IMG/VR virus record: IMGVR_UViG_3300025280_000062
Span: 1 to 39,989 of that record
DNA: 39,989 nt
Source of the DNA: a virus
Direction: 5' to 3' (one strand)
Position 1 is the first letter of the stretch; each line of letters starts with the position of its first letter. Position numbers and translations under genes: made by a program. Shown here one piece after another: positions 10,504 to 35,905 of the stretch. The notes beneath the pieces are model-generated. The model did not search any database and was not told the DNA's origin. It saw only the letters and a list, made by a program, of their open reading frames with translations.

Positions 10504-10937
10504 TGCCGAGCAACGACACTCCAAAGGTTATTTTCCTGAAGGGCTCCCCCATGGGGAAAGAGGCCGTCGCAGCGGAAGCCGGCATCCTGCCGGGTATGCT
10601 GGTAGACGCGGTTCCCGGTGGTGACGCAGTGGCACACGCCACGGCAGGCGGCGCAGCGGTGCCAGCCTTTGCCCGCGCGAACGAGCTGGTGGGCAACGGT
10701 ATTGACGTCGCTTACGCGGACGCGGATACCCTGCTGTACGGTGTAAGCACCAGCGGCGACGAAGTGTACGGCTGGATCGCTGACGCGGAAAACATTACCG
10801 CCGGCACCTTGCTGGAGTCCGCTGGTAACGGCACCTTCAAGGCGCTGGACACTGGTGTGGCTATCGCGAAGGCCCTGCAAACCGTGGACAACTCAACCGG
10901 CGGCGCTCCCGCCCGCATGAAACTGGAGGTGCTGTAA
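10503..10937 (+). CDS. Head decoration / cement protein
   Basis: A 144-residue Gly/Ala/Val-rich beta protein between the scaffold and the major capsid gene, the usual place of decoration (cement) proteins. The segment LPGMLVDAVPGGDAVAHATAGG and later VSTSGDEVYGWIADAENITAGTLLESAGNGTF resemble capsid-stabilising proteins of siphoviruses. It would bind the expanded capsid surface. Both ends overlap neighbours by one base (TAATG). Exact family not certain. Confidence 0.72.
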   Translation: MPSNDTPKVIFLKGSPMGKEAVAAEAGILPGMLVDAVPGGDAVAHATAGGAAVPAFARANELVGNGIDVAYADADTLLYGVSTSGDEVYGWIADAENITAGTLLESAGNGTFKALDTGVAIAKALQTVDNSTGGAPARMKLEVL

Positions 10938-11974
10938 TGCCCCAAGATATCGCAAACGTCGGCGGCGCTGGTGCTGTACTGGGCACAGGCCGTCTGAACG
11001 TCAATAGTCACCGCCCGTACCAGAACAAGGACGGGCAGGCCCGCATCGTTGGCAACGACGGCAAACCACTGGTCGCCAATGACGGCGCCCTGCTCCGCTA
11101 CGACGAGTGGAAGCAAATCGACACCGAAGTGATTCGCGTGGCCACCGACCGCCTCGTGGGCATCCGCGACCTGCAGTCCGCCGGCCTTACCCACAACCTC
11201 GGTTCCTTGGGTACTACCCTGAGCCAGTGGGAGGAGGAAAGCGACATGACTGGGGCGGATGTGTCCATGTCCGGTATCACGGAAGGTGAAGGCGACACCC
11301 CGGCTTGGAACTTGCGTGGTGTGCCGGTGCCCATTTTCCACAAGGACTTCAACGTCAACATCCGCCGGCTGGAAGCGAGCCGCCAGATGGGCGAGTCCAT
11401 CGACGTAACCGCGTCCAGCATCGCGTCCCGCCGTGTAAGCGAGCGCTCTGAGGATATGCTGTTCGGCGGCGCCCCGATTGTGGTGGAAGGTAATAAGCTG
11501 TACGGCTATACCACCATGCCGGGCCGGACTCAGGTGGACATGGGCACCAACTGGGACACTCTGACGCAGGCGCAGAACGCCACCATCCTGGATGACGTTC
11601 AAACCATGCTGCAGAGCGCCCGGGACGACAACAAGCACGGCCCGTTCGTGCTGTACGTGCCCGCCGCTTACGAGTACAAGCTGGACGAGGATTACAACGA
11701 GAATTACCCGCTCACCGTGCGCGAGCGGCTGGAAGCCCTGTCCGGTATCAGCCGGGTGCAGGTAGCCGACCGCCTGCCGGGTAACAACGTGGTTCTCGTG
11801 CAAATGACCCGCGACACCGTGGACCTTGCCATCGCGCAGCCCATCACCACTATCCAGTGGAGCTCCAAGGGCGGTATGGTCGAGAACTTCAAGGTCATGG
11901 CCTGCTGGGCCGCCCGCCTGAAGTCCGATTACGATGGCCGTTGCGGTATCGTACACCTCCGTCCCGCCACCTAA
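10937..11974 (+). CDS. Major capsid protein (HK97 fold)
   Basis: A 345-residue protein, the most likely major capsid subunit from its place, size and codon quality. Features consistent with an HK97-fold (encapsulin/DUF2184-like) shell protein are an N-arm, a long helical spine region with SGITEGEGDTPAWNLRGVPVPIFHKDF, residues IRRLEASRQMGESIDVTASSIASRRV, and a final beta-rich P-domain ending CWAARLKSDYDGRCGIVHLRPAT. No N-terminal delta domain is apparent, which fits the presence of a separate scaffold. A GC-rich hairpin without a T-run follows at 11990-12009, possibly modulating read-through to less abundant neck genes. Confidence 0.88.
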   Translation: MPQDIANVGGAGAVLGTGRLNVNSHRPYQNKDGQARIVGNDGKPLVANDGALLRYDEWKQIDTEVIRVATDRLVGIRDLQSAGLTHNLGSLGTTLSQWEEESDMTGADVSMSGITEGEGDTPAWNLRGVPVPIFHKDFNVNIRRLEASRQMGESIDVTASSIASRRVSERSEDMLFGGAPIVVEGNKLYGYTTMPGRTQVDMGTNWDTLTQAQNATILDDVQTMLQSARDDNKHGPFVLYVPAAYEYKLDEDYNENYPLTVRERLEALSGISRVQVADRLPGNNVVLVQMTRDTVDLAIAQPITTIQWSSKGGMVENFKVMACWAARLKSDYDGRCGIVHLRPAT

Positions 11975-12257: not shown

Positions 12258-12608
12258 ATGGCCGCCAGCACCACCCCGGAAGCCGTCGAAGCCATAGTGG
12301 AAACGGAGCTTAACGTGGCCCCGTTCATCGCTACGGCTGAGGCCCTGTACGCGGCTCAGGTGGGTAACGCCCTGCCGGACGCGCTGGGGAGTCAGGTGCT
12401 GGCTTACCTTGCCGCCCACTTCGTGGCGGTAACGGACCCCCGGGAGCGTCAGGAGGCCGTTGCAACGGGTTCCTGGAGCTTCGAGGGCAAGCAAGGCACC
12501 GGCACGGGCCTCGCTTCCACGCAGTTCGGCCAGATGGCCATGTCACTGGACACCACCGGCAAGCTCCGGAAGGTGGACAAGGTTAAGGCGCGGCTGACGG
12601 TACTATGA
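12258..12608 (+). CDS. Head-tail connector (DUF4054, Mu gp36-like)
   Basis: A 116-residue helical protein with the DUF4054 pattern (PF13262): A-helices around AEALYAAQVGNALPDALGSQVLAYLAAH, followed by the conserved SWSFEGKQGTGTGLASTQFGQMA and a basic end. This family forms the first ring (adaptor) below the portal in head-tail joining. The gene ends in ATGA overlap with the next neck gene. Confidence 0.85.
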   Translation: MAASTTPEAVEAIVETELNVAPFIATAEALYAAQVGNALPDALGSQVLAYLAAHFVAVTDPRERQEAVATGSWSFEGKQGTGTGLASTQFGQMAMSLDTTGKLRKVDKVKARLTVL

Positions 12609-13231
12609 GGCTCACGCACCCCTTCACCTACTGGCCACCGGGCAGCGACACCCCGGAGCACCACCACGGCTACCTCGTTCTCGCGGCTGTGGCGCCCGCT
12701 GGCACCCCGAGCAAAGGGGCCAGTAGGGTAGCACTCCGACAGGACGTTCTGGCCGCTGGCGGTGTCGTGGCGCCGGGCCATCACGACAGTTCCATGCCAC
12801 TCCAAGCCCGGGAGGTTATGTCCGTGACCACGGGCACCAGCCGCCGGGCTTCCCGCACCCTGTACGAAGGCACCTTGTCCGATTTCGACGGGACCGCCCT
12901 GTTCGACCGCTGCAAGGTCTGGCGCACAGAAGCCCGGGACGACGGAATGGGCGGGGTTATCAAGGAGCCGGTGCTGGTGGGCACGTTCCCTTGTAACGCC
13001 ACGGCGACCCCGGCGGAGGAAGTGGTAGCGGAAAACAAGCGCCCCGCCGGCACCTACACTGTCACCGCCCTACGGGACGCAGACATCCAGGACGGCGACA
13101 CCCTGTACCTTCTGGAGCGGGGCGTGTACCTCGGCATCACCGGGGCCGTGGACCGGCGCCCGGTGGGCCTGTTCCTGACGCTGCAAGCGGGGGTGAGCGA
13201 TGAACAAAGTCCGGATGACCTCCAACCGTAA
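12605..13231 (+). CDS. Head closure / neck protein with N-terminal extension
   Basis: A 208-residue protein. Residues about 85-195 match a head-tail joining (head closure) beta-barrel: FDRCKVWRTEARDDGMGGV, the strand TFPCNATATPAEEVV, and RDADIQDGDTLYLLERGVYLGITGAVDRRP. The first 70 residues (MRLTHPFTYWPPGSD...) are unusual for the family. ATG 12605 is supported by an ATGA overlap with the DUF4054 gene, but GTG 12824 with GGAGG eight bases upstream would give the family's usual size, so two products are possible. The gene overlaps the next by 32 bases. Confidence 0.75.
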   Translation: MRLTHPFTYWPPGSDTPEHHHGYLVLAAVAPAGTPSKGASRVALRQDVLAAGGVVAPGHHDSSMPLQAREVMSVTTGTSRRASRTLYEGTLSDFDGTALFDRCKVWRTEARDDGMGGVIKEPVLVGTFPCNATATPAEEVVAENKRPAGTYTVTALRDADIQDGDTLYLLERGVYLGITGAVDRRPVGLFLTLQAGVSDEQSPDDLQP

Positions 13232-13607
13232 GCAGGTTATCAGCGACGTCGAAGCCCGCACCGCCAAGAACGCACAGCAAGCCGCTCTCGTAGCCGAGGC
13301 AGCCATCAAACGCACCCTCACCGGGCAGCGGTCCGGGCAGGAGTACAAGGTCAGCAAAACCGGGCGGACCCACATAGCCTCCGCCCCGGGGGAAGCCCCC
13401 GCTGTACTGTCCGGCGACCTCCGTGCCAGTATCACCACCGCAGCCAGCCCCACCAAGAAGGCCCTGTACTACGTCGGCAGCGATAAGGAGTACGCGGTAC
13501 ACTTGGAGATGGGGACGAAGTACATTGCGCCCCGCCCGTTCTTTGTGGACACCATCAAGCAGGTATTGGCCGCCATACGCGGGGAGCTGACCAAGAGGAT
13601 TGACTGA
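13200..13607 (+). CDS. HK97 gp10-like neck/tail component
   Basis: A 135-residue protein with the HK97-gp10-like pattern: a long N-terminal helix (ARTAKNAQQAALVAEAAIKRTLT), a loop with HIASAPGEAPAVLSGDLRASI, then YYVGSDKEYAVHLEMGTKYIAPRPFFVDTI. The E-x-G-T-x-x-x-x-PRPF ending is diagnostic. These proteins act at the head-tail interface. Start ATG 13200 lies within the end of the previous frame; stop and next start share a base. Confidence 0.88.
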   Translation: MNKVRMTSNRKQVISDVEARTAKNAQQAALVAEAAIKRTLTGQRSGQEYKVSKTGRTHIASAPGEAPAVLSGDLRASITTAASPTKKALYYVGSDKEYAVHLEMGTKYIAPRPFFVDTIKQVLAAIRGELTKRID

Positions 13608-14233
13608 TGCTTCAAGAAATCGTGGAAACCTTGCGGGCCGACCCGGTGCTGGCGGGTATGCTGCCCACCGACCCCACCACGGGCCAGCCGGCGGTGTATA
13701 CGCAGTGGAGCCCCACCGACCGGCAACCGTATATCGTGGTCCAGCACACGCTGAACCCGGTCATGAACACCTCCGGCACCGTGGCCGCCGGCACCCTGGA
13801 GCTCCACTGCTGGGACAGCGGCGCCAGCCTTGCCCGGCTGCAGGGCATCGCCTACCGCCTGATCGACCTGCTGGATTACAGCGAGCTGGACACGGCCCGG
13901 GGGCACGTCCGGCTGAAGCTGCAGCAATCCGGGGCGGTGCCAGAACCGGAACCCAACGTCAGCCGCTGGCGGGCCACCTTCGGAACCCGTATGCTCCGGG
14001 GCGCTGCCGTGGAGGCCCGGGTGGACCGGCCAACCGGGCTGTCCAAAACCAACATTAACACCGCAGACGCCAGCCAATTACAGGAATTGCCCCGGATTGG
14101 TAGCAGTACAGCGGATGCAATAGTACAATTCAGGGTACAGAATGGCCCATTCGACACAACCGGGGATATCCTGCAGGTGCCGGAAGTGGGGCCGCGGACC
14201 TACGACGCAGTCAAAGGGCTTATCACCGTCTAA
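13607..14233 (+). CDS. Tail completion protein fused to a ComEA-type HhH domain
   Basis: A 208-residue protein. Residues 1-135 match a tail completion (tail terminator, DUF3168-like) protein: N-terminal helix, then VYTQWSPTDRQPYIVVQHT, ELHCWDSGASLARLQGIAYRLIDLL. Residues 149-206 are a clear helix-hairpin-helix pair of the ComEA type: NINTADASQLQELPRIG, TADAIVQFR, GDILQVPEVGPRTYDAV. The two hairpins (LPRIGSSTA and VPEVGPRTY) bind DNA non-specifically in ComEA and related proteins. A terminator ring sits at the tail's top, where it could touch DNA; the fusion is not a standard part of this family. The linker is about 13 residues. The HhH coding part is visibly less GC-rich. Confidence 0.82.
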   Translation: MLQEIVETLRADPVLAGMLPTDPTTGQPAVYTQWSPTDRQPYIVVQHTLNPVMNTSGTVAAGTLELHCWDSGASLARLQGIAYRLIDLLDYSELDTARGHVRLKLQQSGAVPEPEPNVSRWRATFGTRMLRGAAVEARVDRPTGLSKTNINTADASQLQELPRIGSSTADAIVQFRVQNGPFDTTGDILQVPEVGPRTYDAVKGLITV

Positions 14234-14245
14234 CGGGGGCACAAT

Positions 14246-14806
14246 ATGTCAGGCGTAACCACCGAAACAGTTAAAAGCATGATCATCGATGCCGGGGCCG
14301 TGTTTGCGGACTACGGCGAAACCAACGAGCGCATCCTCGGCGCTACCCGCGAGGGCGCCAGCTTCCTGATTGAGCAGGAAGTGCGCGAAATTCCAATCGA
14401 CGGGGTCCGTGGCCCGCTGAAGGGTGGCCGCCGGGTTATTTCCGAACACGCCCGCATCACCGCCAACCTGCTGGAAATGACCCCGGATAACCTGTCCCTT
14501 GCCCTGCTGGGCAGCTCCGTGGACAGCACCACGGAACCGGACACCAGCATCATCACGCGGGAAAACGTGTTCCCGAAGGCTTCCGAATATCTTAAGAACG
14601 TGGCCCTTGTAGGCCGCCGGCAGGACACCGGGCAGGACGTAATCTTCATCATCAAAAACCCGCTGGCGGACGGCAACTTCGAGCTGGAAACCACGGACGA
14701 CGACGAAGCCAGCTTGGAGGTGCAGTTCACCGCCCACTTCGACCCGGCGGACGTTACCATTAGCCCGTGGGAAATCCGCGTACCAACACCGGCGACAGGA
14801 GGTTAA
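14246..14806 (+). CDS. Major tail tube protein
   Basis: A 186-residue beta-rich protein placed before the tail chaperones. Conserved points for siphovirus tail tube proteins are ADYGETNERILGATREGASFLIEQEVREIPIDGVRGPLKGGRR near the N-terminus and a C-terminal set of strands (ASLEVQFTAHFDPADV). It would polymerise as hexameric rings to form the tail tube. A ribosome site GGGGGCAC precedes ATG 14246. Confidence 0.85.
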   Translation: MSGVTTETVKSMIIDAGAVFADYGETNERILGATREGASFLIEQEVREIPIDGVRGPLKGGRRVISEHARITANLLEMTPDNLSLALLGSSVDSTTEPDTSIITRENVFPKASEYLKNVALVGRRQDTGQDVIFIIKNPLADGNFELETTDDDEASLEVQFTAHFDPADVTISPWEIRVPTPATGG

Positions 14807-14809
14807 ACC

Positions 14810-15157
14810 ATGACACAGAACGTACAAGTTAAGCTGACCGCCGGGGCCGCGCTGGATTTCGCGGAGGTGCTGGGCGAAGCCATGGAGCACATCGACCCAC
14901 AAATCATCCAGAAGGCCCAAAACGCCGCCAAGGGTGGCGGCAAGGCCGACCCGGTGGAAGTGGGTATGCAAATCGTGAAGGCCCTGCTCCGGCACAGCCG
15001 GGAAAGCGCCACGCGCTTTCTGGCCACCTGTGCCGGCATGACCCCGGAGGAATTGCGGGCCGCACCCCTGTCCACCATGACCGAAATCATTCGGCAGATT
15101 AAGGAGGACCCCGAGCTCGAGGCTTTTATCGAGCAGGTTCGAGGGATGCTCGTCTAA
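14810..15157 (+). CDS. Tail assembly chaperone, upstream frame (gpG-like)
   Basis: A 115-residue helical protein directly after the tail tube gene and two frames before the tape measure, the position of gpG-type tail assembly chaperones. It consists of helices such as ALDFAEVLGEAMEHI and ATRFLATCAGMTPEELRA, with no membrane segment. In relatives a minority of ribosomes shift by -1 near the stop to add a downstream (T) domain. The -1 frame here is open from 15103 across the stop at 15155-15157 to 15495, so such a fusion is possible. Confidence 0.75.
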   Translation: MTQNVQVKLTAGAALDFAEVLGEAMEHIDPQIIQKAQNAAKGGGKADPVEVGMQIVKALLRHSRESATRFLATCAGMTPEELRAAPLSTMTEIIRQIKEDPELEAFIEQVRGMLV

Positions 15158-15168
15158 AGCCGTGGTTC

Positions 15169-15495
15169 GTGGTAGACCGGCTTCTGGCCCGTTACGGCTG
15201 GACGCTGGAATACCTGTACGGCTTACGCCCGGAGGTGTATTACCGGCTGTCCCAAGCGGCCCTCAAGGCGGAAACGGAGGTCGCCCGGGAGCAACTTACA
15301 GTCGAAGCCTTCGGGGCATGGTTGGCCGGGTACGCCGGGCGCAAAACCTTCGGCCAATTCCTGCAGCACCTCGGACTTGAGGATACCCAAACGAAGCCCC
15401 GCACCAGCAAAGAGGAAGCGCTGGCGCTGGCGAAAAGCATAGTGGAGCGCGACCGTGTTAGAGCTGTTCAAAATAGTCGGCCGAATAGCCCTTGA
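15169..15495 (+). CDS. Tail assembly chaperone, downstream frame (gpT-like)
   Basis: A 108-residue helical protein (RLLARYGWTLEYLYGLRPEVYYRL..., then LTVEAFGAWLAGYAG) in the -1 frame relative to the preceding gene and overlapping the tape measure start by 41 bases. GTG 15169 has no convincing ribosome site, and the frame is open upstream to 15103 within the previous gene, so it is probably made as a -1 frameshift extension rather than independently. Candidate slip runs in the overlap are CCCC (about 15107-15110) and TTTT (about 15124-15127); neither is a textbook heptamer. Confidence 0.65.
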   Translation: MVDRLLARYGWTLEYLYGLRPEVYYRLSQAALKAETEVAREQLTVEAFGAWLAGYAGRKTFGQFLQHLGLEDTQTKPRTSKEEALALAKSIVERDRVRAVQNSRPNSP

Positions 15496-20757: not shown

Positions 20758-21759
20758 ATGAGCTTTATCTATGTTAACAACCTGAAAACCACGCTGCTGG
20801 AAGCTGTCGACGATATCGCGGAAGAACTAACGCTGGTACGTGCGGGGACCGAGCTGGACTCCGTGCTCCAATCCGGCAACCTAAGCTGGAACGCTGGCGA
20901 CGGTACAGCGGACGAGGTGGTGCCCCTTACACTCGTTCCTGCCGGCGTTGCGAACCCGGCCCTGTCCGATGTGGAGGTGGTGTACGTGGTGGGTGGTAGC
21001 GCCCCGACTGTCCAAGTGAAACGCGGGCAGGCCGGGACCACGGCTAAAAACTGGGAAGCCGGGGACACCGTGGGGTGTTTCTTGCTGAATGATGCGATTT
21101 ACCAGCCTTCCGGGAGCGTAAAGCTCGGAGGAAACGCTGCCGCCCTGTATGATGGCGCGGTTAGTATTGGTTTCGATAGTCACGCATATAACGAAGGGGC
21201 GGTTGCCATCGGGAATAACGGCGGGTCCTCGGCCACCAATGCCGTCTCCGTCGGTACGGGAAGCGACACCACCGGGGCCTCATCGTTGGCCCTTGGGCAC
21301 AACGCATCGGCCAAGGCGGATTACGGTGTGGCTATTGGTTCCGGCTCATTGGGCGTGGCTTCCCGGATCATTGCCCTTGGTGTGGATACCGAAGTCAGCG
21401 GTGACTCGGGGGTAGCTATTGGGGATGGCGCTGCTTGTAGAACGCCGAACAGCATCAGCATCGGAACCGACTCGGAGTCGGTGTCGCCACATGGCATATC
21501 CATCGGCACCGGGGCGTTCAATGCCGGGGGCGTTGCACTTGGGCGAAACGCTAATACAACAACGCAGAATGGCGTTGCGCTGGGGGAGGACACAACCACC
21601 ACGGCAGGCAATCAAGTGCACGTCGGCGACCGGGATCTGGAGCTTGGCACCGACACCAGCCCTCGCGGCATCCACCTCTACAGCCCGGACGGCACCCGCT
21701 ATAAGATTACAGTGGACGATACTGGTGCACTGTCCGCTACTGCTGACCCGCTGGCATAA
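20758..21759 (+). CDS. Tail adhesin with YadA-head-like repeats
   Basis: A 333-residue protein. Residues about 1-115 are a globular N-terminal domain that includes VPLTLVPAGVANPALSDVEVVYVVGGSAPTVQVKRGQAG. Residues about 130-290 contain around ten 14-16-residue repeats of the type A-x-A-x-G-x(6-8)-G-A/S (AVAIGNNG, SLALGHNASA, GVAIGSGSL, GVALGRNANT, GVALGEDTTT), the left-handed beta-roll of trimeric autotransporter (YadA-like) heads. The end is a short unique domain. This fold usually forms a trimeric fibre for binding cells. The stretch is lower in GC than the capsid genes. Confidence 0.8.
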   Translation: MSFIYVNNLKTTLLEAVDDIAEELTLVRAGTELDSVLQSGNLSWNAGDGTADEVVPLTLVPAGVANPALSDVEVVYVVGGSAPTVQVKRGQAGTTAKNWEAGDTVGCFLLNDAIYQPSGSVKLGGNAAALYDGAVSIGFDSHAYNEGAVAIGNNGGSSATNAVSVGTGSDTTGASSLALGHNASAKADYGVAIGSGSLGVASRIIALGVDTEVSGDSGVAIGDGAACRTPNSISIGTDSESVSPHGISIGTGAFNAGGVALGRNANTTTQNGVALGEDTTTTAGNQVHVGDRDLELGTDTSPRGIHLYSPDGTRYKITVDDTGALSATADPLA

Positions 21760-27011: not shown

Positions 27012-27836
27012 ATGGCGAACACCAAGAAGCAACAGCAAGAAGTCGCAACCAAAGACGAAACCCTGCCGGTCACTGCTGGCATGTTTGAGGAGGATGCTGG
27101 CGACGGTTTTGAGGACACCAACAAGGACGACTTCGCGATCCCGTTCCTGCAAGTGCTGCAGAAGATGAGCCCGCAGGTGGACCCGGAAGAGGACGGCTTT
27201 ATCGAAGGCGCCAAACCGGGGCAGCTTGTTAACACCGTGAGCGAGGAGCTGTGGGACGGTAAAACGGGCGTCACCGTTATCCCGTGCCACTACGAGCGCA
27301 AGATCCTGGAGTGGGTTCCGCGCAACAAGGGCGGCGGCCTCGTGGCTGAGCACGACTTGGACAAGGGCCTGCTCCTGCTGGACGAGTGTATCCAGGACGA
27401 GCAGAAGCGCGACATCCACCCGGGCAACGGCAATGAGTTCCAGGACACCCGGACCCACTACGTGCTGATTGTGGGCGAGGACGGCAGCTACGAGCCGGCG
27501 GTTATCAGCATGACCCGCACCAAAATCCGGGCCTCCAAGAAGTGGATGTCCCTGATGAACGGCATCAAGAAACGCCGCAGCACTGGCGGCCTGTTCACGC
27601 CGCCCATGTTCAGCCACGTATACCGCGTGTTCTCCGAGGCCCGCAGCAACGATCAGGGCACCTTCTACGTCTTCAACATCAAGAAGGAGCGCGAGCTGGG
27701 CACCCAAGAAGGCGACGAGGAGCTGTACCACGCCGCCAAGGGCTTCCGGGAAACCGTGCGGGCTGGCGCCGCCAAGGCCAACCACGCCGCAGCCAACGGC
27801 GAGGCGACGGAGGAAACCAACGAGTTCGCGGACTAA
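27012..27836 (+). CDS. Conserved phage protein, candidate ssDNA-binding protein
   Basis: A 274-residue acidic protein with Lys/Gln-rich N-terminus. The core FAIPFLQVLQKMSPQVDPEEDGFIEGAKPGQLVNTV, GVTVIPCHYERKILEWVPRNKGGG and AVISMTRTKIRASKKWMSLM is a conserved phage pattern often annotated as single-stranded DNA-binding protein. I cannot confirm an OB fold from the sequence. The gene has a good ribosome site (AAGGTGA), optimised codons, and is followed by a strong terminator (27854-27879), which fits an abundant protein made apart from the primase. Confidence 0.65.
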   Translation: MANTKKQQQEVATKDETLPVTAGMFEEDAGDGFEDTNKDDFAIPFLQVLQKMSPQVDPEEDGFIEGAKPGQLVNTVSEELWDGKTGVTVIPCHYERKILEWVPRNKGGGLVAEHDLDKGLLLLDECIQDEQKRDIHPGNGNEFQDTRTHYVLIVGEDGSYEPAVISMTRTKIRASKKWMSLMNGIKKRRSTGGLFTPPMFSHVYRVFSEARSNDQGTFYVFNIKKERELGTQEGDEELYHAAKGFRETVRAGAAKANHAAANGEATEETNEFAD

Positions 27837-27853
27837 CCTGCCGTAGCACCATA

Positions 27854-27879
27854 CCCCGGGCGCCCTGCCCGGGGTTTTT
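27854..27879 (+). terminator. Rho-independent terminator
   Basis: CCCCGGGC (27854-27861) pairs with GCCCGGGG (27867-27874) over a five-base loop, followed by five T residues (27875-27879). The primase gene begins 15 bases later (ATG 27894, ribosome site TGGAGG), so partial termination would set primase below the upstream protein. Confidence 0.88.
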
Positions 27880-27893
27880 CTCTGGAGGTAGCA

Positions 27894-29432
27894 ATGACAC
27901 CGGCTGAAATAGCGGAGGCCCTGCTGCAGCGGTTCCGGGGGCTGGATACCGCCTACGGCTTTTTCGAGCTGCAGGACCGCAAGAAGGGCACCAAGAAAGA
28001 CGGCAAGGGGCACACCCGCCGGGGCGACGTGACCGCCAGCCTGTGGGAGCAGCACCTGACCGGGCGGGCCATGCTGGGTATCGTGCCAATCACGGCGGAT
28101 GCGACCTGCCACTGGGGCGCCATTGATATTGACGACTACACCGTGGACCTTGACCTGCTGGAAAGGAAGATCCATGAGTACGTGCTACCGCTCACGGTGG
28201 TACGTAGCAAGAGCGGCGGGGCACACCTGCAGCTCTACCTCACCGACGAGGCCCCGGCCCGGAAGGTGCGGCAGACGTTGGGTGACTGGGCCGTAGCACT
28301 GGGCCACCCGGGGGTGGAAATATTCCCGAAACAGGACGAGCTGGCGGGGCCGGAGGACGTTGGTAACTGGCTCAACATGCCATACTTCGGCGCCTGTAAG
28401 GACGGGCACGAGGTGCAGAGCTTCGCCCTGTATAAAGGTGAGGCCCTGTCCGTGGACGAGTTCCTGGAGCTGGCAAAGGCCCGGGCGGTGCCGGCGGCGG
28501 CGCTGGACGATATCAAGCCCGTGGGCGGCCCGGTAGGGGACGGCCCGCCGTGCCTGCAGACTATGGCCTTGCACGGCATACCAGAGGGCGGGCGGAACGA
28601 ATCCCTGTTTGCCCTTGGGGTATACGCCAAGCTCAAGCACGGGGACCACTGGGAACAGCACCTTAACGACCTAAACCAAGACCATCTGGACCCGCCCCTA
28701 CCGTTCCAGGAGGTGGCGGACATAGCCAAATCCCTGAAGCGTAAGGACTACAATTTCCCCTGCAAGAAGCAACCGCTGGCGGGGTTCTGCAACCGGGAAA
28801 TCTGCCGGGCGCGGCCCTACGGCATAGGCGCCAGCACCGGGCCGGAAGACCCGGGGGTTATGATTGACGGGCTGACCCAACTGCAGGGGGAGACGCCCAT
28901 CTGGTTCGTGACCGTGAACGGGGTGCGGATGCAAATAACCACCGACGAGCTCCTGAATCAGGGCCGGTTCGCTCGCAAGTGCGTGGAGAAATTGCGGTTC
29001 TTCCCCAACCAGATGAAGCCTGTACGCTGGCAAAAGCTGATCAACGGGTTGCTGAAGAACGCCGAGGTGGTGGATATGCCGGCGGACAGCGGCGCCGGGG
29101 GCCAATTCTGGCTTCTGCTGGAGCAGTTCTGCACCGGCTTCCAAGTGGGGCGCCAGTGGGAGGACCTGTTACGGGGCCTGCCGTACACCGACACTGAGGC
29201 GGCGGAGCCGGTCACCTATTTCCGCAGCACCGACCTGATGAAGTTCCTGCAGCAACAACAATTCCGCGACCTGAAGCAGAACGAGATATGGGCGTTGCTC
29301 CGCGAGGCCGGGGCCAAGCACAAGCAAAAGCAAATCAAAGGGCGTTGTGTGCAGATGTGGGGCGTACCCGCGTTCGACGTGCAGACCGAGGAGTTCACCG
29401 TGCCCAAACCGGACACCGGGGAGTTCTCATGA
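27894..29432 (+). CDS. Archaeo-eukaryotic-type primase (TOTE/AEP superfamily)
   Basis: A 512-residue primase. The catalytic core has D78-x-D80 in HWGAIDIDDYTVD, and S-G-G-A-H111 in VVRSKSGGAHLQLYL, the two metal/nucleotide motifs of the AEP fold, plus EIFPKQ. A PriCT-like helical domain follows (GRNESLFALGVYAKLKHG... DIAKSLKRKDYNFPC), then a cysteine cluster around CNREICRARPYGIG. The C-terminal 150 residues are helical (winged-helix-like). It would make primers for the family A polymerase. No DnaG-type TOPRIM motif is present. Coupled to the next helicase by ATGA. Confidence 0.85.
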   Translation: MTPAEIAEALLQRFRGLDTAYGFFELQDRKKGTKKDGKGHTRRGDVTASLWEQHLTGRAMLGIVPITADATCHWGAIDIDDYTVDLDLLERKIHEYVLPLTVVRSKSGGAHLQLYLTDEAPARKVRQTLGDWAVALGHPGVEIFPKQDELAGPEDVGNWLNMPYFGACKDGHEVQSFALYKGEALSVDEFLELAKARAVPAAALDDIKPVGGPVGDGPPCLQTMALHGIPEGGRNESLFALGVYAKLKHGDHWEQHLNDLNQDHLDPPLPFQEVADIAKSLKRKDYNFPCKKQPLAGFCNREICRARPYGIGASTGPEDPGVMIDGLTQLQGETPIWFVTVNGVRMQITTDELLNQGRFARKCVEKLRFFPNQMKPVRWQKLINGLLKNAEVVDMPADSGAGGQFWLLLEQFCTGFQVGRQWEDLLRGLPYTDTEAAEPVTYFRSTDLMKFLQQQQFRDLKQNEIWALLREAGAKHKQKQIKGRCVQMWGVPAFDVQTEEFTVPKPDTGEFS

Positions 29433-30910
29433 GGGTGGTGTTCGGTGGCCCGGGCACGGGCAAGACGACCCACCTGCTGGGGGTGGTGCGGGAAGCGCTG
29501 GAGGCTGGTGTACCGGCTGGCCAGATTGCGTACATGGCCTTCACCCGTAAGGCCGCCAACGAGGCCAAAGAACGGGCGGCGAAGCAGTTCGGCCTCAAGC
29601 CCCGCGACCTGCCCTACTTCAGCACCTTGCACAGCATGGCGTACAGGCAGCTCGGTATCAGCGGGGCGAACCTTATGGGCGCGGAGGATTTCAACGAGCT
29701 GGGTGACCTGCTGCAGCTCCAATTCGTGGCCAGCTACAACCACCTCGACGGCCCGCCCACCAGTGGCCCAAAAGGCTCCCGCTTGCTGCAGGTTATAGGG
29801 TACGCCCGGAGCCGGAATATACCGCTGGCGGACGCTTGGCGCCGGGCTGGCGAGGCGGTTAACTGGTGGGAGCTGGTGCAGCTCCAGGAGGCGCTGGAAA
29901 CCTTCAAGGAGGCCACGGGCAAGCTGGATTTCCATGACCTGATTGATGAGTATGCCAAGGCCGGGCAACCCCTGCCGGTTAAGCTGGGCATCATCGATGA
30001 GGCGCAAGACCTCACCGTGCGCCAGTGGCAGGCGGTACACCGGGCGTTCCATAGCTGCCCGGATGTGGTGGTCGGGGGCGACGACGATCAGGCCATATAC
30101 CGCTGGAGCGGTGCCAGCGTGGAAACCTTCCTGGACCTTGCCCACCGCCCGGGGGTGGAGCGGACGGTGCTGTCCAAGTCCCACCGCTTGCCCCGGCGGG
30201 TGTTTGCACTGGCCAACGAAATCAGCGCCCGCATCGGCAACCGGGAGCCCAAGGACTGGCAACCGGCGGACCGCGAAGGCCGGGTGGAGTGGATCGCGCA
30301 CCCGGGGGACGTGGACCTGACCGCCGGGACGTGGTTGTTGCTGGCCCGCAACGGGCACCACCTGAAAGAGTTTGTGCAGACCTGCCGGGTGCAGGGGGTT
30401 AAGTACAACACCGCCAGCGGGCCGAGCATACCGGCCAACCACCTGAAGGCGATACGCGGCTGGGAGCAGCTCCGCAAGGGCAAGGCCGTCGCCAAGGGCA
30501 CCGCGAAGGCCGTGGCCACCTTCAACCCGGACTTGGACCCGGCGGATATAGTGGAGGACGGGAACTACCCACCGGAGGCCCTGCTGCCCGGGCCACCCGC
30601 GGAAGCCCCGTTCTGGCATGACGCCCTGTCCTTGATACCAATCGAGGACCGGGAGTATTACCTGACCATTATGCGCCGGGGCGAGCGGCTGCAAGACCCG
30701 GCCCGGGTAACAGTGGGCACCATACACAGCGCCAAGGGCGGGGAGGCGGACAACGTGGTGCTCCGGGTGGACATGACCCAACGGTCGTTCACCGGGTACA
30801 TGCTGAACCCGGATGATGAGGCCCGGGTGTTTTACACTGGCCTCACCCGGGCGCAGGAAAATCTATTTTTGGTGGCGCCTCAAGGAGTTAGGGATTATCC
30901 CTTCCAGTAG
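29429..30910 (+). CDS. UvrD/Rep-like SF1 helicase
   Basis: A 493-residue SF1A helicase. Motif I GGPGTGKTT at residues 6-14, Ia YMAFTRKAANEA, II IIDEAQDL, III GDDDQAIYRW, IV region LSKSHRLP, V VGTIHSAKGGEADNVVL, VI FYTGLTRAQENL. All are in order and intact. It would unwind DNA 3'-5' in replication or recombination. It begins in an ATGA overlap with the primase, so the two are probably coupled and may act together. A second SF1 helicase lies at 31686. Confidence 0.93.
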   Translation: MRVVFGGPGTGKTTHLLGVVREALEAGVPAGQIAYMAFTRKAANEAKERAAKQFGLKPRDLPYFSTLHSMAYRQLGISGANLMGAEDFNELGDLLQLQFVASYNHLDGPPTSGPKGSRLLQVIGYARSRNIPLADAWRRAGEAVNWWELVQLQEALETFKEATGKLDFHDLIDEYAKAGQPLPVKLGIIDEAQDLTVRQWQAVHRAFHSCPDVVVGGDDDQAIYRWSGASVETFLDLAHRPGVERTVLSKSHRLPRRVFALANEISARIGNREPKDWQPADREGRVEWIAHPGDVDLTAGTWLLLARNGHHLKEFVQTCRVQGVKYNTASGPSIPANHLKAIRGWEQLRKGKAVAKGTAKAVATFNPDLDPADIVEDGNYPPEALLPGPPAEAPFWHDALSLIPIEDREYYLTIMRRGERLQDPARVTVGTIHSAKGGEADNVVLRVDMTQRSFTGYMLNPDDEARVFYTGLTRAQENLFLVAPQGVRDYPFQ

Positions 30911-30933
30911 GTGAAATTTTTTGCGAAAAAGGG

Positions 30934-30962
30934 TTGCAAAGGCCGAAAATCGTGCGTATATT
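30934..30962 (+). promoter_or_regulatory. Sigma70 promoter of the zinc-finger/winged-helix gene
   Basis: TTGCAA (30934-30939), a 17-base spacer and TATATT (30957-30962) form a very good sigma70 promoter in the 113-base gap after the helicase. The surrounding bases are AT-rich. No GTTCC motif occurs here, so control differs from the 603 and 2941 promoters. Confidence 0.75.
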
Positions 30963-31023
30963 TAAACCATAGACGGGGCGCACAGCGGCCCACCAAACAG
31001 AAAGAGAGAAAGAGGTGACTACC

Positions 31024-31629
31024 ATGGCAACTACTTACAGCAACCGCAGCAACACCATCCGCGCAGCCAAGAAAGCCGGTTACACCAAAGACGACATCGT
31101 AATCAGCACCACCGCGGAAGGCCGCTTCTACTACGAGCCGAAGCAAACTGAAGCGCAGAAGGAAGAGGACGCACGGCTGGCGGCCCTGTACGGCCACACC
31201 AACTGCCCGGAATGCGACATCCACCTGAGCAACGGTGTTTGCGACTTCGAAGGGCTGGTTGACGCGCAGGACGGCGACATGAACCGGGCATACCAGCTCC
31301 AGAAAAAAGAGTTCGCCTGCATGGCGTGTGACGCAGAGTGGGGCGCTGACGCACTGGCCCCGGCGGACACCAAAGAGGACGAGCCGAAGAAGCCGGGCAA
31401 GCGTAAGTACAAAAAGAGCGGCGAAAATAGCTATGACCCGAGCACCGTGGACGGCCCGGTGGCGCTGGCTTGGGGTATCTACGACGAGCTGGTCGCCGCA
31501 AAAGGTCGCGACAACATCGTTCGGAAGGAATTTATCGCCGACGCCATCGGTAGCGGCATCAACCCGAACACCGCCAGCACACAGTTCAACGCATGGCGCA
31601 AGGCCCGGGGCTACGAACTGGCTAAATAA
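31024..31629 (+). CDS. Zinc-finger plus winged-helix protein (201 aa)
   Basis: A 201-residue protein. Residues 8-40 are a small basic/beta N-terminal part. Residues 61-102 hold two CxxC pairs (C61/C64 and C99/C102), a zinc ribbon. A Lys-rich linker (KKPGKRKYKKSG) follows, and residues about 145-198 form a winged-helix-like domain (IVRKEFIADAIGSGINPNTASTQFNAWRK) that resembles the 63-residue protein at 33105. ATG 31024 has GAGGTGA at good distance; GTG 31015 is an alternative. Its own strong promoter and optimal codons suggest abundant expression. DNA binding is likely; target unknown. Confidence 0.75.
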   Translation: MATTYSNRSNTIRAAKKAGYTKDDIVISTTAEGRFYYEPKQTEAQKEEDARLAALYGHTNCPECDIHLSNGVCDFEGLVDAQDGDMNRAYQLQKKEFACMACDAEWGADALAPADTKEDEPKKPGKRKYKKSGENSYDPSTVDGPVALAWGIYDELVAAKGRDNIVRKEFIADAIGSGINPNTASTQFNAWRKARGYELAK

Positions 31630-31636
31630 ACAAAAC

Positions 31637-31656
31637 GGCCCCGGGCAACCGGGGTC
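31637..31656 (+). other. GC hairpin with GCAA tetraloop
   Basis: GGCCCCGG (31637-31644) pairs with CCGGGGTC (31649-31656) over a GCAA (GNRA-type) loop immediately after the 31024 gene. No T-run follows. Likely protects the mRNA 3' end or attenuates transcription into the helicase gene. Confidence 0.45.
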
Positions 31657-31685
31657 ACTACCAGACCGACAGAAAGGGGAACATC

Positions 31686-33101
31686 ATGCAGTGGAGCAAC
31701 CACCAGCGAGCCATCTTTGATTTCGTGGCGGACACCATGGCGGGCAGCGGGGTTGTCGAGGCCGTGGCCGGTAGCGGTAAAACCACCACCATCGTCGAGG
31801 CGATGAAGTACCTGCCCAAGAACCAGTCGGTGGCCTTCATGGCGTTTAACGCCAGCATCGCCAAAGAGCTGAAGGCCCGGGTGCCGGCAGGGGTGGAAAC
31901 CATGACCATGAACAGCCTCGGCCACCGGGCGGTCATGCGGGCCGTTGGCAAGGTGGAGCTGGACAGCAACAAGGTCCGCGGGATCGTGCGGGCCATGGTG
32001 CCGGAGCACTGGCGGACCGTGGACCCGGACGCCGTTACCGCCGTCGTTCAGCTGGTGGGGCTGGCGAAGGCCCATGGGCTGGTGCCGGACGCCCCGGGCT
32101 TTGAGGACCTTGCGGTCCACCACGGGGTGGACTACACCCCTGAAATCGACCTGTACGCCCGCAAGGCCCTCCGGGCCAACAACACGGACACCCGGGTCAT
32201 CGACTTCAACGACCAGCTCTACTTCCCGGTGATCAACCACTGGTATCCGCGCCAGCAATTCGACGTTATCTTCCTGGACGAAGCGCAGGACGTGTCCACA
32301 GTACAGCGCCAGCTCGTCGCCATGGCGCTGAAGCCCGGGGGCCGGGTGGTTGCGGTGGGCGACCGCCGTCAGGCCATTTATGGCTTCCGTGGGGCGGACA
32401 GTGCGAGCTTGGACAACATAGCCACGGAGTTCGGGGCCACCCGCCTACCCCTGTCCGTCACCTACCGCTGCCCGGCGGCGGTGGTACGGCAGGCCCAAAC
32501 CGTGGCGCCGGAAATACAGGCCGCCGCCGGGGCGCCGGAGGGCTTCGTAGGCCCTGCCGGGGACCAGTTCCCCGGGCCGGCGGACATGGTGGTGTGCCGC
32601 AACAACGCCCCGCTCCTGTCGCTGGCCTTCCAGATGCTGTCCAACGGGCAAGCCTGTAACGTCATGGGCCGGGACATCTCCGCTTCGCTGGTCACCTTCA
32701 TCCAGCGCTTCAAGGCCGGCACCGTTGGCGACTTGCTGGCGGCTGTGGACCGCTGGTACGTCGCGGAGCTGGACAAGGCCCTACGGGCGGAAAACGAGTC
32801 CAAGGCCGCCAGCGTGGAGGACCGGGTGGCCTGTGTGTACGCACTGGCGGACGGCCTACCGTCCACCGGCTCGGTGGGGCTGGTGGTAGCCCGCGTCAAG
32901 GAAATCTTTGCAGCGGGCGGGGGCGCCACCTTGTCCAGCGTACACCGTGCCAAGGGGCTGGAGGCGGACAACGTGTTCGTCCTGGAACCCGGGCTTATGC
33001 CGAGCCGCTTTGCCCGCAAACCGTGGCAGCAAGTCCAGGAGCAGAACCTGATGTATGTCGCTTGGACCCGGGCTGGTAAAAACCTGTATTTTATGGAGTA
33101 G
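31686..33101 (+). CDS. Second UvrD-like SF1 helicase
   Basis: A 471-residue SF1 helicase distinct from the 29429 gene. Motif I is AVAGSGKTT (residues 26-34), Ia is FMAFNASIAKEL, II is FLDEAQDVS, III GDRRQAIYGFRGAD, IV YRCP, V SVHRAKGLEADNVFVL and VI YVAWTRAGKNLYF. The GDRRQAIYGFRG signature is the F-box helicase/UvrD-like class. The ribosome site AAGGGGAACATC precedes ATG 31686. Two SF1 helicases suggests separate replication and repair or recombination roles. Confidence 0.92.
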   Translation: MQWSNHQRAIFDFVADTMAGSGVVEAVAGSGKTTTIVEAMKYLPKNQSVAFMAFNASIAKELKARVPAGVETMTMNSLGHRAVMRAVGKVELDSNKVRGIVRAMVPEHWRTVDPDAVTAVVQLVGLAKAHGLVPDAPGFEDLAVHHGVDYTPEIDLYARKALRANNTDTRVIDFNDQLYFPVINHWYPRQQFDVIFLDEAQDVSTVQRQLVAMALKPGGRVVAVGDRRQAIYGFRGADSASLDNIATEFGATRLPLSVTYRCPAAVVRQAQTVAPEIQAAAGAPEGFVGPAGDQFPGPADMVVCRNNAPLLSLAFQMLSNGQACNVMGRDISASLVTFIQRFKAGTVGDLLAAVDRWYVAELDKALRAENESKAASVEDRVACVYALADGLPSTGSVGLVVARVKEIFAAGGGATLSSVHRAKGLEADNVFVLEPGLMPSRFARKPWQQVQEQNLMYVAWTRAGKNLYFME

Positions 33102-33104
33102 GGT

Positions 33105-33296
33105 ATGCGTAACGGCAACACCAAGAAAGTGAGAAACATCTGCAACACCCTCCACCGCCTGTACGGCGGGGAGGTCAGCAGAAAGCAAGTCATTGAGGCC
33201 GCCGTGAGGCAAGGTGTTCCGGAAAACACCGCGTCGGACGTCTGGCAGCAATGGCGCCAACAAAACGGAAACGAGAGGAAACCTCATGTTCGGTAA
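33105..33296 (+). CDS. Small winged-helix protein (63 aa)
   Basis: A 63-residue basic protein. VSRKQVIEAAVRQGVPENTASDVWQQWRQQ resembles the C-terminal domain of the 31024 protein (NPNTASTQFNAWRK), so it is a free-standing paralogue of that winged-helix-like domain. It starts right after the helicase stop (GAGTAGGGT) and overlaps queE by 11 bases, tying helicase and modification genes in one transcript. A regulatory or DNA-binding role is inferred. Confidence 0.7.
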   Translation: MRNGNTKKVRNICNTLHRLYGGEVSRKQVIEAAVRQGVPENTASDVWQQWRQQNGNERKPHVR

Positions 33297-34038
33297 AAAC
33301 CCGAAGCCGTCCTTCGGCTTTGAGCAAACCGGGGAGCGTGTGCTGGTTCGCGCCCTGTTCCCCACCATCCAAGGGGAAGGCCCCTTCACGGGCCACCCGG
33401 CCATCTTTGTCCGGCTCGGCGGCTGCCCCTTGCACTGCTGGTTCTGCGACACGGATTTCACTGAGGCCCGGTCGGAGTGGTACACGGCGGAGGAGCTGGT
33501 GTGGATGTGTGCCACAAACTGGGATAACGCCCGGTGGCAGGCGGAGCCGCTGGTGGTAATCACCGGGGGCGAGCCCCTGTACCAGAACGTCGGCCCGCTG
33601 ATCCGTGGCCTGCTGGACAGCGGCTTCCAGGTGCAGATCGAAACCAGTGGGGCGGTCAAGAACGTGCCGTCGGCCCTGCTGTGGCAGCCCGGGGTTCATA
33701 CGGTGGTGAGCCCCAAGACCGCCAGCGTACACCCGGATATCCTTCGCTACGCCACCGACTGGAAATACGTGATTGGCCACGACGCCACGGTCACGGAGGA
33801 TGGTGTGCCGGTGGTGGATACACAGGACACCGGCAAGCCCCGGCAACTGGCCAGCCCCTTCGGGCGCGTAAGCCCTGACCCGTTCCGGGTGTGGCTGCAG
33901 CCGAGGGAAGATTATGACCCGGTCGGCAAGCCGAACAAGCTGGCCAACGACGCCAACCTGCAGCGGACGAAGCAGGTGGCGCTCCTGTTCGGCTACTGCG
34001 TTTCCCTGCAAACCCACAAAATCCTTGGAGTGGAATAA
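33286..34038 (+). CDS. queE: 7-carboxy-7-deazaguanine synthase
   Basis: A 250-residue radical SAM enzyme. It carries the QueE-type cluster motif C47-x3-C51-x2-C54 (GCPLHCWFCDT) and GGEP at residues 94-97. QueE turns 6-carboxytetrahydropterin into CDG, the third step of preQ0 synthesis. ATG 33286 has AGAGGAA upstream; the longer frame from 33214 overlaps the previous gene. FALFPTIQGEGP-like text near residue 25 and GRVSPDPFRVWLQPREDYD-like text near the end fit the family. Stop and next ATG overlap (TAATG). Confidence 0.93.
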   Translation: MFGKNPKPSFGFEQTGERVLVRALFPTIQGEGPFTGHPAIFVRLGGCPLHCWFCDTDFTEARSEWYTAEELVWMCATNWDNARWQAEPLVVITGGEPLYQNVGPLIRGLLDSGFQVQIETSGAVKNVPSALLWQPGVHTVVSPKTASVHPDILRYATDWKYVIGHDATVTEDGVPVVDTQDTGKPRQLASPFGRVSPDPFRVWLQPREDYDPVGKPNKLANDANLQRTKQVALLFGYCVSLQTHKILGVE

Positions 34039-34487
34039 TGCCATACCAATCAACCAAACGATACGGCCACGAAGTGGGGCTGTCCTGCGCCTTCCGCCAG
34101 TGGCGGGCGGACAGCCATTGCCAGCTCTTGCACGGCTACGCCCTGTCCTTTGAGTTCACGTTTGAGGCCAGCGAGCTGGACGCCCGGAACTGGGTGGTGG
34201 ACTTCGGCGGGCTGAAGGGCCTGAAGGGTATGCTGGAGGACACCTTCGACCACAAAACCATCGTCGCGGCGGACGACCCGGAGCTGGACTGGTTCCACGA
34301 GGCGGAAGCCCGGGGCCTGCTGGAACTGGTGGTGGCCGAGCGGGCCGGGTGCGAAGCCTTTGCCCGGCTGGCCTTCGAGGCGGCGGAATTGTACCTGCAG
34401 GACTACGGCTACGCCGGTCGGGTGCGGGTTGTGAAGGTGGAAGTTAAAGAACACGGCGCAAACGGAGCAAGCTACTATGAGTCTTGA
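34038..34487 (+). CDS. queD: 6-carboxytetrahydropterin synthase (QueD variant)
   Basis: A 149-residue PTPS-fold protein. C28 in SHCQLLHGYALSF aligns with the catalytic Cys of QueD, and WVVDFGGLK, FDHKTIV and VKVEVKEH match the family. The zinc site is unusual: H32 is kept, but the second His of HGH is Tyr34, and the first His of the AAHRL motif appears replaced (LSCAFRQ). Phage and some bacterial QueD-like variants share this form. It would act second in preQ0 synthesis. Overlaps folE by 11 bases. Confidence 0.88.
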   Translation: MPYQSTKRYGHEVGLSCAFRQWRADSHCQLLHGYALSFEFTFEASELDARNWVVDFGGLKGLKGMLEDTFDHKTIVAADDPELDWFHEAEARGLLELVVAERAGCEAFARLAFEAAELYLQDYGYAGRVRVVKVEVKEHGANGASYYES

Positions 34488-35097
34488 TAACGCCAGCCCG
34501 GCGGACTGGAGCCGGGCACAGTATTACCAAACCACGAAGGACAGCGTTCGCAACCTGCTCCGCTTTGCCGGGGAAGACCCGGGCCGGGGCGGCCTGCAAG
34601 ACACCCCTGACCGTGTGCTGAAGGCATGGCGGGACCACTGGTGCGCCGGGTATGACGTGGACGTTGGTGCCTTGCTGAAAACCTTTGAAGACGGGGCCGA
34701 GGGAATTGACGAGATGGTGGTGGTTAAGGACATCCCGGTCTATAGCCACTGCGAACACCACCTCGCCGCCATCTTTGGTCGCGCTCATGTAGCCTACATC
34801 CCGGACGGGCGGATTGTGGGCCTGTCCAAGATCAACCGGGTGGTGGACGCCTTTGCCCGGCGCCTGCAGGTACAGGAGCGGCTGACCCGGCAGGTGGCCG
34901 ACGCCCTGACGGAGCACCTGCAGCCGTTGGGGGTGGCGGTCATGCTGGAGTGCCGGCACCTCTGCATGGAATCCCGGGGCGTGTGCCAGCAAGGGCACAG
35001 CACCATCACCAGCGCCATGAGGGGCGCGTTCCGCAAAGAACAGGACACCCGAAACGAATTTCTAGCCATTGTGAACGGAGGAAGCCGCCATGTCTAA
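34477..35097 (+). CDS. folE: GTP cyclohydrolase I
   Basis: A 206-residue FolE. The zinc/active-site segment HCEHHLAAIFGRAHVAYIPDGRIVGLSKINR is intact (C92, H94/H95), and the second zinc cysteine lies in CRHLCM (C159/C163). RLTRQVADAL and GVAVMLECRHLCMESRGV are conserved. It opens the pathway by turning GTP into dihydroneopterin triphosphate. Supplying this step from the phage raises precursor for base modification. The stop overlaps queC (ATG 35090). Confidence 0.95.
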   Translation: MSLDNASPADWSRAQYYQTTKDSVRNLLRFAGEDPGRGGLQDTPDRVLKAWRDHWCAGYDVDVGALLKTFEDGAEGIDEMVVVKDIPVYSHCEHHLAAIFGRAHVAYIPDGRIVGLSKINRVVDAFARRLQVQERLTRQVADALTEHLQPLGVAVMLECRHLCMESRGVCQQGHSTITSAMRGAFRKEQDTRNEFLAIVNGGSRHV

Positions 35098-35905
35098 GGC
35101 ACTGGTAGTTCTCAGCGGCGGGCAGGACAGCACGTTCTGTCTCGGCCTAGCCGTACAGGAGCACGGGGCGAGCAACGTGGTTGCCCTGACGTTTAATTAC
35201 GGGCAAACCCACTCCCGGGAGCTGGAGGCCGCCGCCACGGTGGCCACCATGTTCGGGGTCGGGCATGAAGTGGTGGACGTGCCGGACGTGCTGGTGTCCA
35301 CCAGTCCGCTGACGGACCGCAGCCAGGAGCTTGAGCAGTACGAAACGGCGGAGGAGATGGAAGCCATTATTGGTGACCGGGTGGAGAAAACCTTCGTGCC
35401 GATGCGAAACGCCTTTTTCCTGACGCTGGCGGCGAACCGGGCGGTGGCGCGGGACTGCTGGTTTATTTACACAGGGGTCTGCGAGGACGACAATGCCAAT
35501 TACCCGGACTGCCGTGGGGCTTTTATTGCAGCGCAGGAACAGGCCATCATAGAGGCCCTCGGGCTGGAACCCGGCGCGATTGCTATTGTGGCGCCGCTCT
35601 TGCACGTAAGCAAACCGGAGCAGATTAAACGCGCCCGGGCGGTGCCGGGGGTCTACGAGGCATGGGCCTATAGTCACACCGCCTACGACGGCCAGTACCC
35701 GCCCGTCGGCCGGGACCATGCCACGGTTCTCCGCGAGGCCGCCTTCGCCGAGGCGGGTGTGCCGGACCCGTTGGTGGCCCGGGCGGTGTTCGAAGGGCTT
35801 ATGGATGTCCCGGACACGGACAACTACGACATCATTCGGGGCGACGTTCCGTTGGTGCAGAGCCTGCCGGTGCTGGTGGCCTACGTTACCGAGGGGCAGG
35901 GGTGA
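35090..35905 (+). CDS. queC: 7-cyano-7-deazaguanine synthase without zinc cysteines
   Basis: A 271-residue QueC. The ATP P-loop SGGQDST (residues 9-15) is intact, and FNYGQTHSRELEAA, VPMRNAFFLTLAANRA and YTGVCEDDNANYPDCR match the family. QueC makes preQ0 from CDG, ammonia and ATP. The C-terminal cysteine cluster, which normally binds zinc, is replaced: the SCY motif reads SHTAYDG (residues 195-201), and PCGKCDACLLR reads PPVGRDHATVLR (204-215). No Gat (amidotransferase) fusion is present. Ribosome site GGAGGA before ATG 35090. Confidence 0.9.
   Translation: MSKALVVLSGGQDSTFCLGLAVQEHGASNVVALTFNYGQTHSRELEAAATVATMFGVGHEVVDVPDVLVSTSPLTDRSQELEQYETAEEMEAIIGDRVEKTFVPMRNAFFLTLAANRAVARDCWFIYTGVCEDDNANYPDCRGAFIAAQEQAIIEALGLEPGAIAIVAPLLHVSKPEQIKRARAVPGVYEAWAYSHTAYDGQYPPVGRDHATVLREAAFAEAGVPDPLVARAVFEGLMDVPDTDNYDIIRGDVPLVQSLPVLVAYVTEGQG

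Follow-up and report, generated by a model that had tools for sequence, protein, structure and literature searches.

The terminator proteins of siphophage tails end in a short C-terminus, and those of myophages carry C-terminal extensions which reach the outer sheath (PMC11915804). In the neck of phage 80alpha, whose nomenclature is followed here for protein names (TrP for the tail terminator; TCP for gpZ, gp16.1 and HK97 gp10), the end of the DNA is contacted by TCP, a protein different from the terminator (PMC11661146). The helix-hairpin-helix (HhH) domain is known from the competence protein ComEA: in Bacillus subtilis its lysine K164 is required for transformation and is conserved as strongly as the HhH signature, Geobacillus ComEA with the equivalent change K166A no longer bound DNA in EMSA, and the effect of the K193 position is smaller (PMC9747964). 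HhH proteins of phages have been mentioned (PMC9206674; PMC10343443), none of them with the domain in a terminator; a terminator with an HhH domain was found neither in the phage records nor in the literature searched, and the fusion of the two was undescribed in these sources.

In the present analysis such a fusion was investigated in a virus record of 39,989 bases, the whole of which is referred to as the window. A sequence-only reading had taken one of its genes for a tail completion protein joined to a complete ComEA-like tandem HhH domain, acquired as its low GC seemed to imply, which might grip the genome end, gate ejection or assist DNA on its way across the periplasm.

A tail terminator with a C-terminal ComEA-type domain

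The gene at 13607-14233 (+ strand, like the neck and tail tube genes named below) is a single ORF of 208 codons which runs unbroken from its ATG to a TAA stop. Pfam profile searches placed Tail_completion_gp17 (PF11367) at residues 4-128 (E 5.9e-6) and HHH_3 (PF12836) at residues 148-207 (E 9.2e-18) of the 208 aa product; the PF11367 match reached 26.9 bits against a gathering cut-off of 24.5, which was exceeded in all five lineages possessing the fusion. A PHROGs search assigned the protein to a tail-terminator family, and with phmmer the C-terminal part matched ComEA of B. subtilis (5e-9) and Geobacillus (1e-7), while a match of the N-terminal part to SPP1 gp17 was by itself too weak to count. 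Three parts can be distinguished: a terminator domain (residues 1-129, 13607-13993), a linker (residues 130-146, 13994-14044), which in the alignment differs in length by 1-2 residues among lineages and mostly has low model confidence, and the (HhH)2 domain (residues 147-208, 14045-14230), whose NINTADA motif starts at base 14051, just where it had been placed before. In the AlphaFold2 model pLDDT values were 77-95 over most of the HhH part and 30-79 in the terminator part. Residues 139-208 of this model superposed on ComEA with Z 12.9 at 0.9 Å, and the HhH model lay within 0.7-0.9 Å rmsd of ComEA 8dss. Residues 1-129, where model confidence is low to moderate, aligned (VIA-align) with Z of about 6-9 to many terminators, among them lambda gpU (Z 9.1) and those of GTA, Mu, T5 and SPP1. 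Since the match stops at residue 129, exactly where lambda gpU ends (131/131), the HhH domain is appended to a full terminator. The gene product is thus a tail terminator with a C-terminal ComEA-type (HhH)2 domain, and the fusion as such is borne out by the open frame, the Pfam matches and its recurrence, with the same architecture, in four further lineages.

The name chosen earlier for its first half does not hold. The gene encodes the terminator (TrP, gpU/gp17 type), and the member of the gpZ/gp16.1-type TCP family is its upstream neighbour at 13200-13607 (TCP or Neck1, HK97 gp10 type; phrog_5, E 3e-9), a family usually tied to the DNA end (PMC11661146). The tail tube gene follows at 14246-14806 (phrog_885, E 3e-49), and the order TCP, terminator, tail tube is present in the window and its relatives. 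Further upstream, 12605-13231 encodes a probable head-closure (stopper) protein, recognised by a weak Phage_HCP match at residues 99-194 and by the lengths of its counterparts in relatives. Taking the likeliest starts, it measures 208-211 aa in the HhH lineages as against 103-128 aa in sister lineages, the difference being an N-terminal extension of about 95 aa, which was recognised by none of the libraries searched. The extension and the HhH domain may be linked additions; the association is weak, as each could have been added in a single event in one clade.

The window contains several other genes worth recording. Between the tail tube and tape measure genes, 14810-15495 holds two short ORFs at the usual site of tail assembly chaperones, and the window genes scanned, which were part of the gene set, included no recognisable tail sheath. 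The capsid protein (10937-11974) matches DUF6260 and the encapsulin family Linocin_M18 and is distantly related (24-33%) to proteins of Halorubrum, Brevundimonas and Mannheimia phages; at 20758-21759 lies the gene of a probable tail fibre containing a YadA head repeat. Within 27012-33101 an AEP-TOTE-type primase adjoins two UvrD-like helicases; upstream, a protein resembling Pam3 gp34 is encoded. A queuosine/7-deazaguanine-type cluster at 33214-35905, which suggests modified phage DNA, comprises GTP cyclohydrolase I (34477-35097) and QueC (35090-35905), and their neighbours at 33214-34038 and 34038-34487 may be QueE and QueD. No tRNA genes were found.

Inheritance of the fusion and exchange of the domain

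Scans anchored on the tail-tube protein, the fusion and the HhH part detected the fusion in five lineages, namely the window, L002, L003/L004, L005/L006 and L020-L023, the four others being 54-67% identical to the window over the full protein length. In each of them the fused gene lies immediately upstream of the tail-tube gene, and their tail tubes share about 62% identity or more with that of the window. Relatives with tail tubes of at most 59% identity possess a terminator of 126-167 aa without HhH, or, in the four most distant ones, an ORF of that size range in its place. The recurrence in L002, L003/L004, L005/L006 and L020-L023 rules out an assembly or reading-frame error. A broken frame, or a separate HhH gene with its own start in close relatives, had been named as what would speak against a fusion; the frame is open, no separate or second HhH gene occurred in the related contigs examined, and the fusion lineages have no internal start codon with a ribosome-binding site in common. 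The further fusions, for which a search had been proposed, all belong to one clade of uncultured phages, and the fusion is an inherited trait of that clade. The HhH tree does not reject a single origin (AU p 0.55) and does not establish it either, as it comprises 63 columns only.

Beyond these lineages no full-length fusion was detected by tblastn among 50,697 phage records or in genome contigs scanned with a single-protein query. The 369 genomes searched from the class to which G001 belongs were also negative, a result of little information as a tail-tube query was equally empty there, and scans with single sister-group terminators returned near-copies only. The four matches to the HhH part that were inspected in the phage collection proved to be bacterial genes of ComEA-like type on unannotated contigs, each preceded by an N-terminal part of its own, and not phage fusions.

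That the domain is merely a passenger, joined by chance and tolerated at an exposed end, appears decidedly improbable. The HhH part does diverge at least as much as the terminator part in most lineage pairs. Siphophage tails, moreover, tolerate added outer domains such as Ig domains. However, in five lineages which are 54-67% identical to the window, or are the window itself, the domain is open, folded and complete in length, its core positions and the C-terminal I-T are kept, and no losses were seen in the related contigs examined.

The lower GC of the domain compared with its surroundings was confirmed: 0.543 in the HhH part versus 0.694 in the terminator part, with third-position values of 0.613 and 0.877, which places the HhH part in the lowest 0.3% of the window's coding stretches of 186 bases. 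All five lineages have a lower GC in the HhH part. A first acquisition is too old to explain this dip, as the fusion is common to diverged lineages; what points to a foreign origin of the segment is its similarity to one of these lineages. Sites at which the window agrees with L002 outnumber those at which it agrees with L006 in the terminator part (83:64) and in the tail tube gene (101:54), and the ratio reverses sharply within the HhH part (14:56). The segment which scored highest (14049-14236; permutation p 4e-4) coincides nearly exactly with the domain plus stop codon and is closer to L005/L006 than its flanks are, from which a recombination in the form of a domain swap is inferred. Where window and L005 encode the same amino acid, they use an identical codon at 30/46 positions in the HhH part and at 30/86 in the terminator part (p 0.001), a comparison made post hoc on a segment already picked for its low GC, whereas the boundary scan took in the whole region; the other nine lineage pairs displayed no difference in same-codon use between the two parts at 0.05. 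A constraint on composition alone was considered as the cause of the low GC and rejected, because all five lineages are lower in GC in the HhH part and only the pair of window and L005 has significantly raised synonymous-codon identity. Most probably, the HhH segment now found in the window's phage was donated by a phage like L005, whose own DNA is low in GC (contig 0.527). The earlier inference of acquisition from low GC is therefore retained as to the foreign origin of the segment and replaced, as to its timing, by a later exchange within the clade. Judged from site patterns and codon use, one or more exchanges have moved the DNA of the domain as a whole, and an exchange of exactly the domain fits an independent module.

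Another proposal restricts the domain to morphogenesis, where it would, for instance, keep the terminator monomeric or guide the joining of head and tail; it would have no role in the finished particle. C-terminal tags on the T5 terminator do alter its polymerisation (PMC11784142), but sister phages assemble without an HhH domain and an aid to assembly does not predict exchange of the module, so that we regard it as rather improbable.

Hairpins, position in the neck and function

Contrary to what had been supposed, the tandem HhH is not complete. Hairpin 1 (RIGSSTADAI, 14093-14122) is degenerate in all five lineages: the position of B. subtilis K164 is occupied in the alignment by T168 (14108-14110) in the window and by T, N, V, T and L across the five, K or R being found in 0/5 of them and in 29/39 of the other homologues collected, and none of the five has an unbroken GxG in hairpin 1. 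As the lineages are related, this count of 0/5 does not represent five independent events. Hairpin 2 (EVGPRTYDAVK, 14183-14215) is better preserved, its GxG being intact in 3/5 lineages and the second G in all; G195 and R197 of the window are kept as G and K/R throughout, so that the position of K193 is basic in every lineage. Going by these residues, hairpin 1 has lost the DNA-contact features of ComEA in the whole clade. The loss of lysine and GxG makes DNA binding by the HhH domain doubtful; yet the ComEA-like domains of Tex and EEPD1 likewise lack the hairpin-1 lysine, and hairpin 2 has kept its basic residue.

The position of the domains can be approached by their volume. The lumen of the terminator measures 30.5 Å in phage Douge (PMC13033339), and six domains of about 6.8 kDa each amount, by our own arithmetic, to about 49,000 cubic Å, which beside a DNA rod of 20 Å would fill more than 100 Å of a channel of 30.5 Å, that is, more than the height of one ring. 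Together with the C-terminal extensions of myophage terminators and the C-terminal Ig domain of the Douge tail tube, which points outward (PMC13033339), this volume suggests that the six C-terminal domains lie outside the ring. A C-terminal tag on the T5 terminator, on the other hand, has been speculated to fold into the lumen (PMC11784142).

Both lines of evidence bear on the proposal that an HhH ring grips the packaged genome end in the neck channel, holds the DNA and gates ejection. In its favour, ComEA HhH domains of this type bind dsDNA (PMC9747964), the DNA end of a GTA reaches the terminator ring (PMC7296036), and the G and K/R of hairpin 2 are kept in all lineages. On the other hand, the key lysine and GxG of hairpin 1 are lost in 5/5, the lumen of about 30 Å is too small for six 62-residue domains beside DNA, terminators of close fold and sister phages manage without HhH, and in 80alpha it is TCP which meets the DNA end (PMC11661146). 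With hairpin decay and geometry both against it, a grip on the genome end in the channel is unsupported, and we consider it quite unlikely. A passage of DNA through the periplasm finds no support in the data either. A bolder version, in which six borrowed DNA-uptake domains hold the genome end via hairpin 2 alone and release it on infection, a competence module turned ejection gate, seems very improbable.

We favour, with a probability of roughly one half, an accessory neck module on the exterior which is exchangeable and binds a protein, or DNA weakly, and is no high-affinity clamp of the genome end in the channel. Six terminator copies would form the usual hexameric ring between the stopper and the first tail-tube ring, and the HhH domains would hang by short linkers outside it, on the same side as the C-terminal extension of myophage terminators. 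There the module might hold a neighbouring protein, for which the extended head-closure protein (12605-13231) is the candidate; alternatively, it might bind DNA or another ligand weakly via hairpin 2. According to structure comparison the HhH domain of the window shares its fold with PsbU of photosystem II, which is a precedent for a role of this fold within a protein complex. Against an exterior module it can be held that, with a linker of about 17 residues, one or two of the domains might extend to the axis, and that the basic residue which DNA binding would require in hairpin 2 is present throughout the lineages; a tight co-adaptation with the head-closure protein is made less likely by how freely the domain is exchanged.

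Domains outside the ring could also bind DNA outside the particle, from the host or the environment, for instance in biofilms, and aid the phage in attaching or staying near cells. The exchange of the domain as an independent module would agree with this, as would the facts that ComEA itself works on extracellular DNA (PMC9747964) and that fusion to a ComEA-type domain increases the DNA affinity of other proteins, at high salt too (PMC4777378); but hairpin 1 is degenerate and the neck is an unusual site of adhesion, and this role is held to be unlikely.

Comparison with known systems

With the terminators of siphophages (lambda gpU, SPP1 gp17, RcGTA Rcc01690; PF11367) the protein of the window shares the fold over residues 1-129, the gene position between TCP and tail tube and a PF11367 score above the gathering threshold; to their short C-terminus (PMC11915804) it adds a (HhH)2 domain of 62 aa. 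The myophage and R-pyocin terminators (Mu gp37, pyocin R2 collar) likewise extend the terminator fold at its C-terminus, in Mu by a beta-hairpin joining the sheath, whereas the extension in the window is a folded HhH domain.

The DNA-binding domain of ComEA (TIGR00426, PF12836) is similar in its NINTA start, its two HhH motifs, the distance of 0.7-0.9 Å to 8dss and the PF12836 match (E 9e-18), but the window lacks the N-terminal parts of ComEA, the K164-equivalent lysine and the hairpin-1 GxG. Its score of 49.7 bits remains below the TIGR00426 cut-off of 53.1, and that of 45.0 bits below the cut-off of 152.35 of TIGR01259 (comEA), a strict one which the stand-alone clostridial homologue L014 also fails with 77 bits. 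Among multi-domain proteins, Tex, EEPD1 and PsbU possess the same HhH fold, in Tex and EEPD1 with a hairpin 1 devoid of the lysine, and none of them is a virion protein. A DNase of Thioalkalivibrio resembles the window in carrying a ComEA-type domain at the C-terminus of an otherwise unrelated protein; there the domain confers salt tolerance on the enzyme, probably by DNA affinity (PMC4777378).

Siphophage terminators being usually minimal, with a short C-terminus, one that bears an HhH domain stands out among them, and an inherited fusion whose domain was swapped along its borders and whose main DNA-gripping hairpin has decayed warns against equating "ComEA-like" with "DNA-binding" and offers a clean test of the purpose of a domain mounted on the neck.
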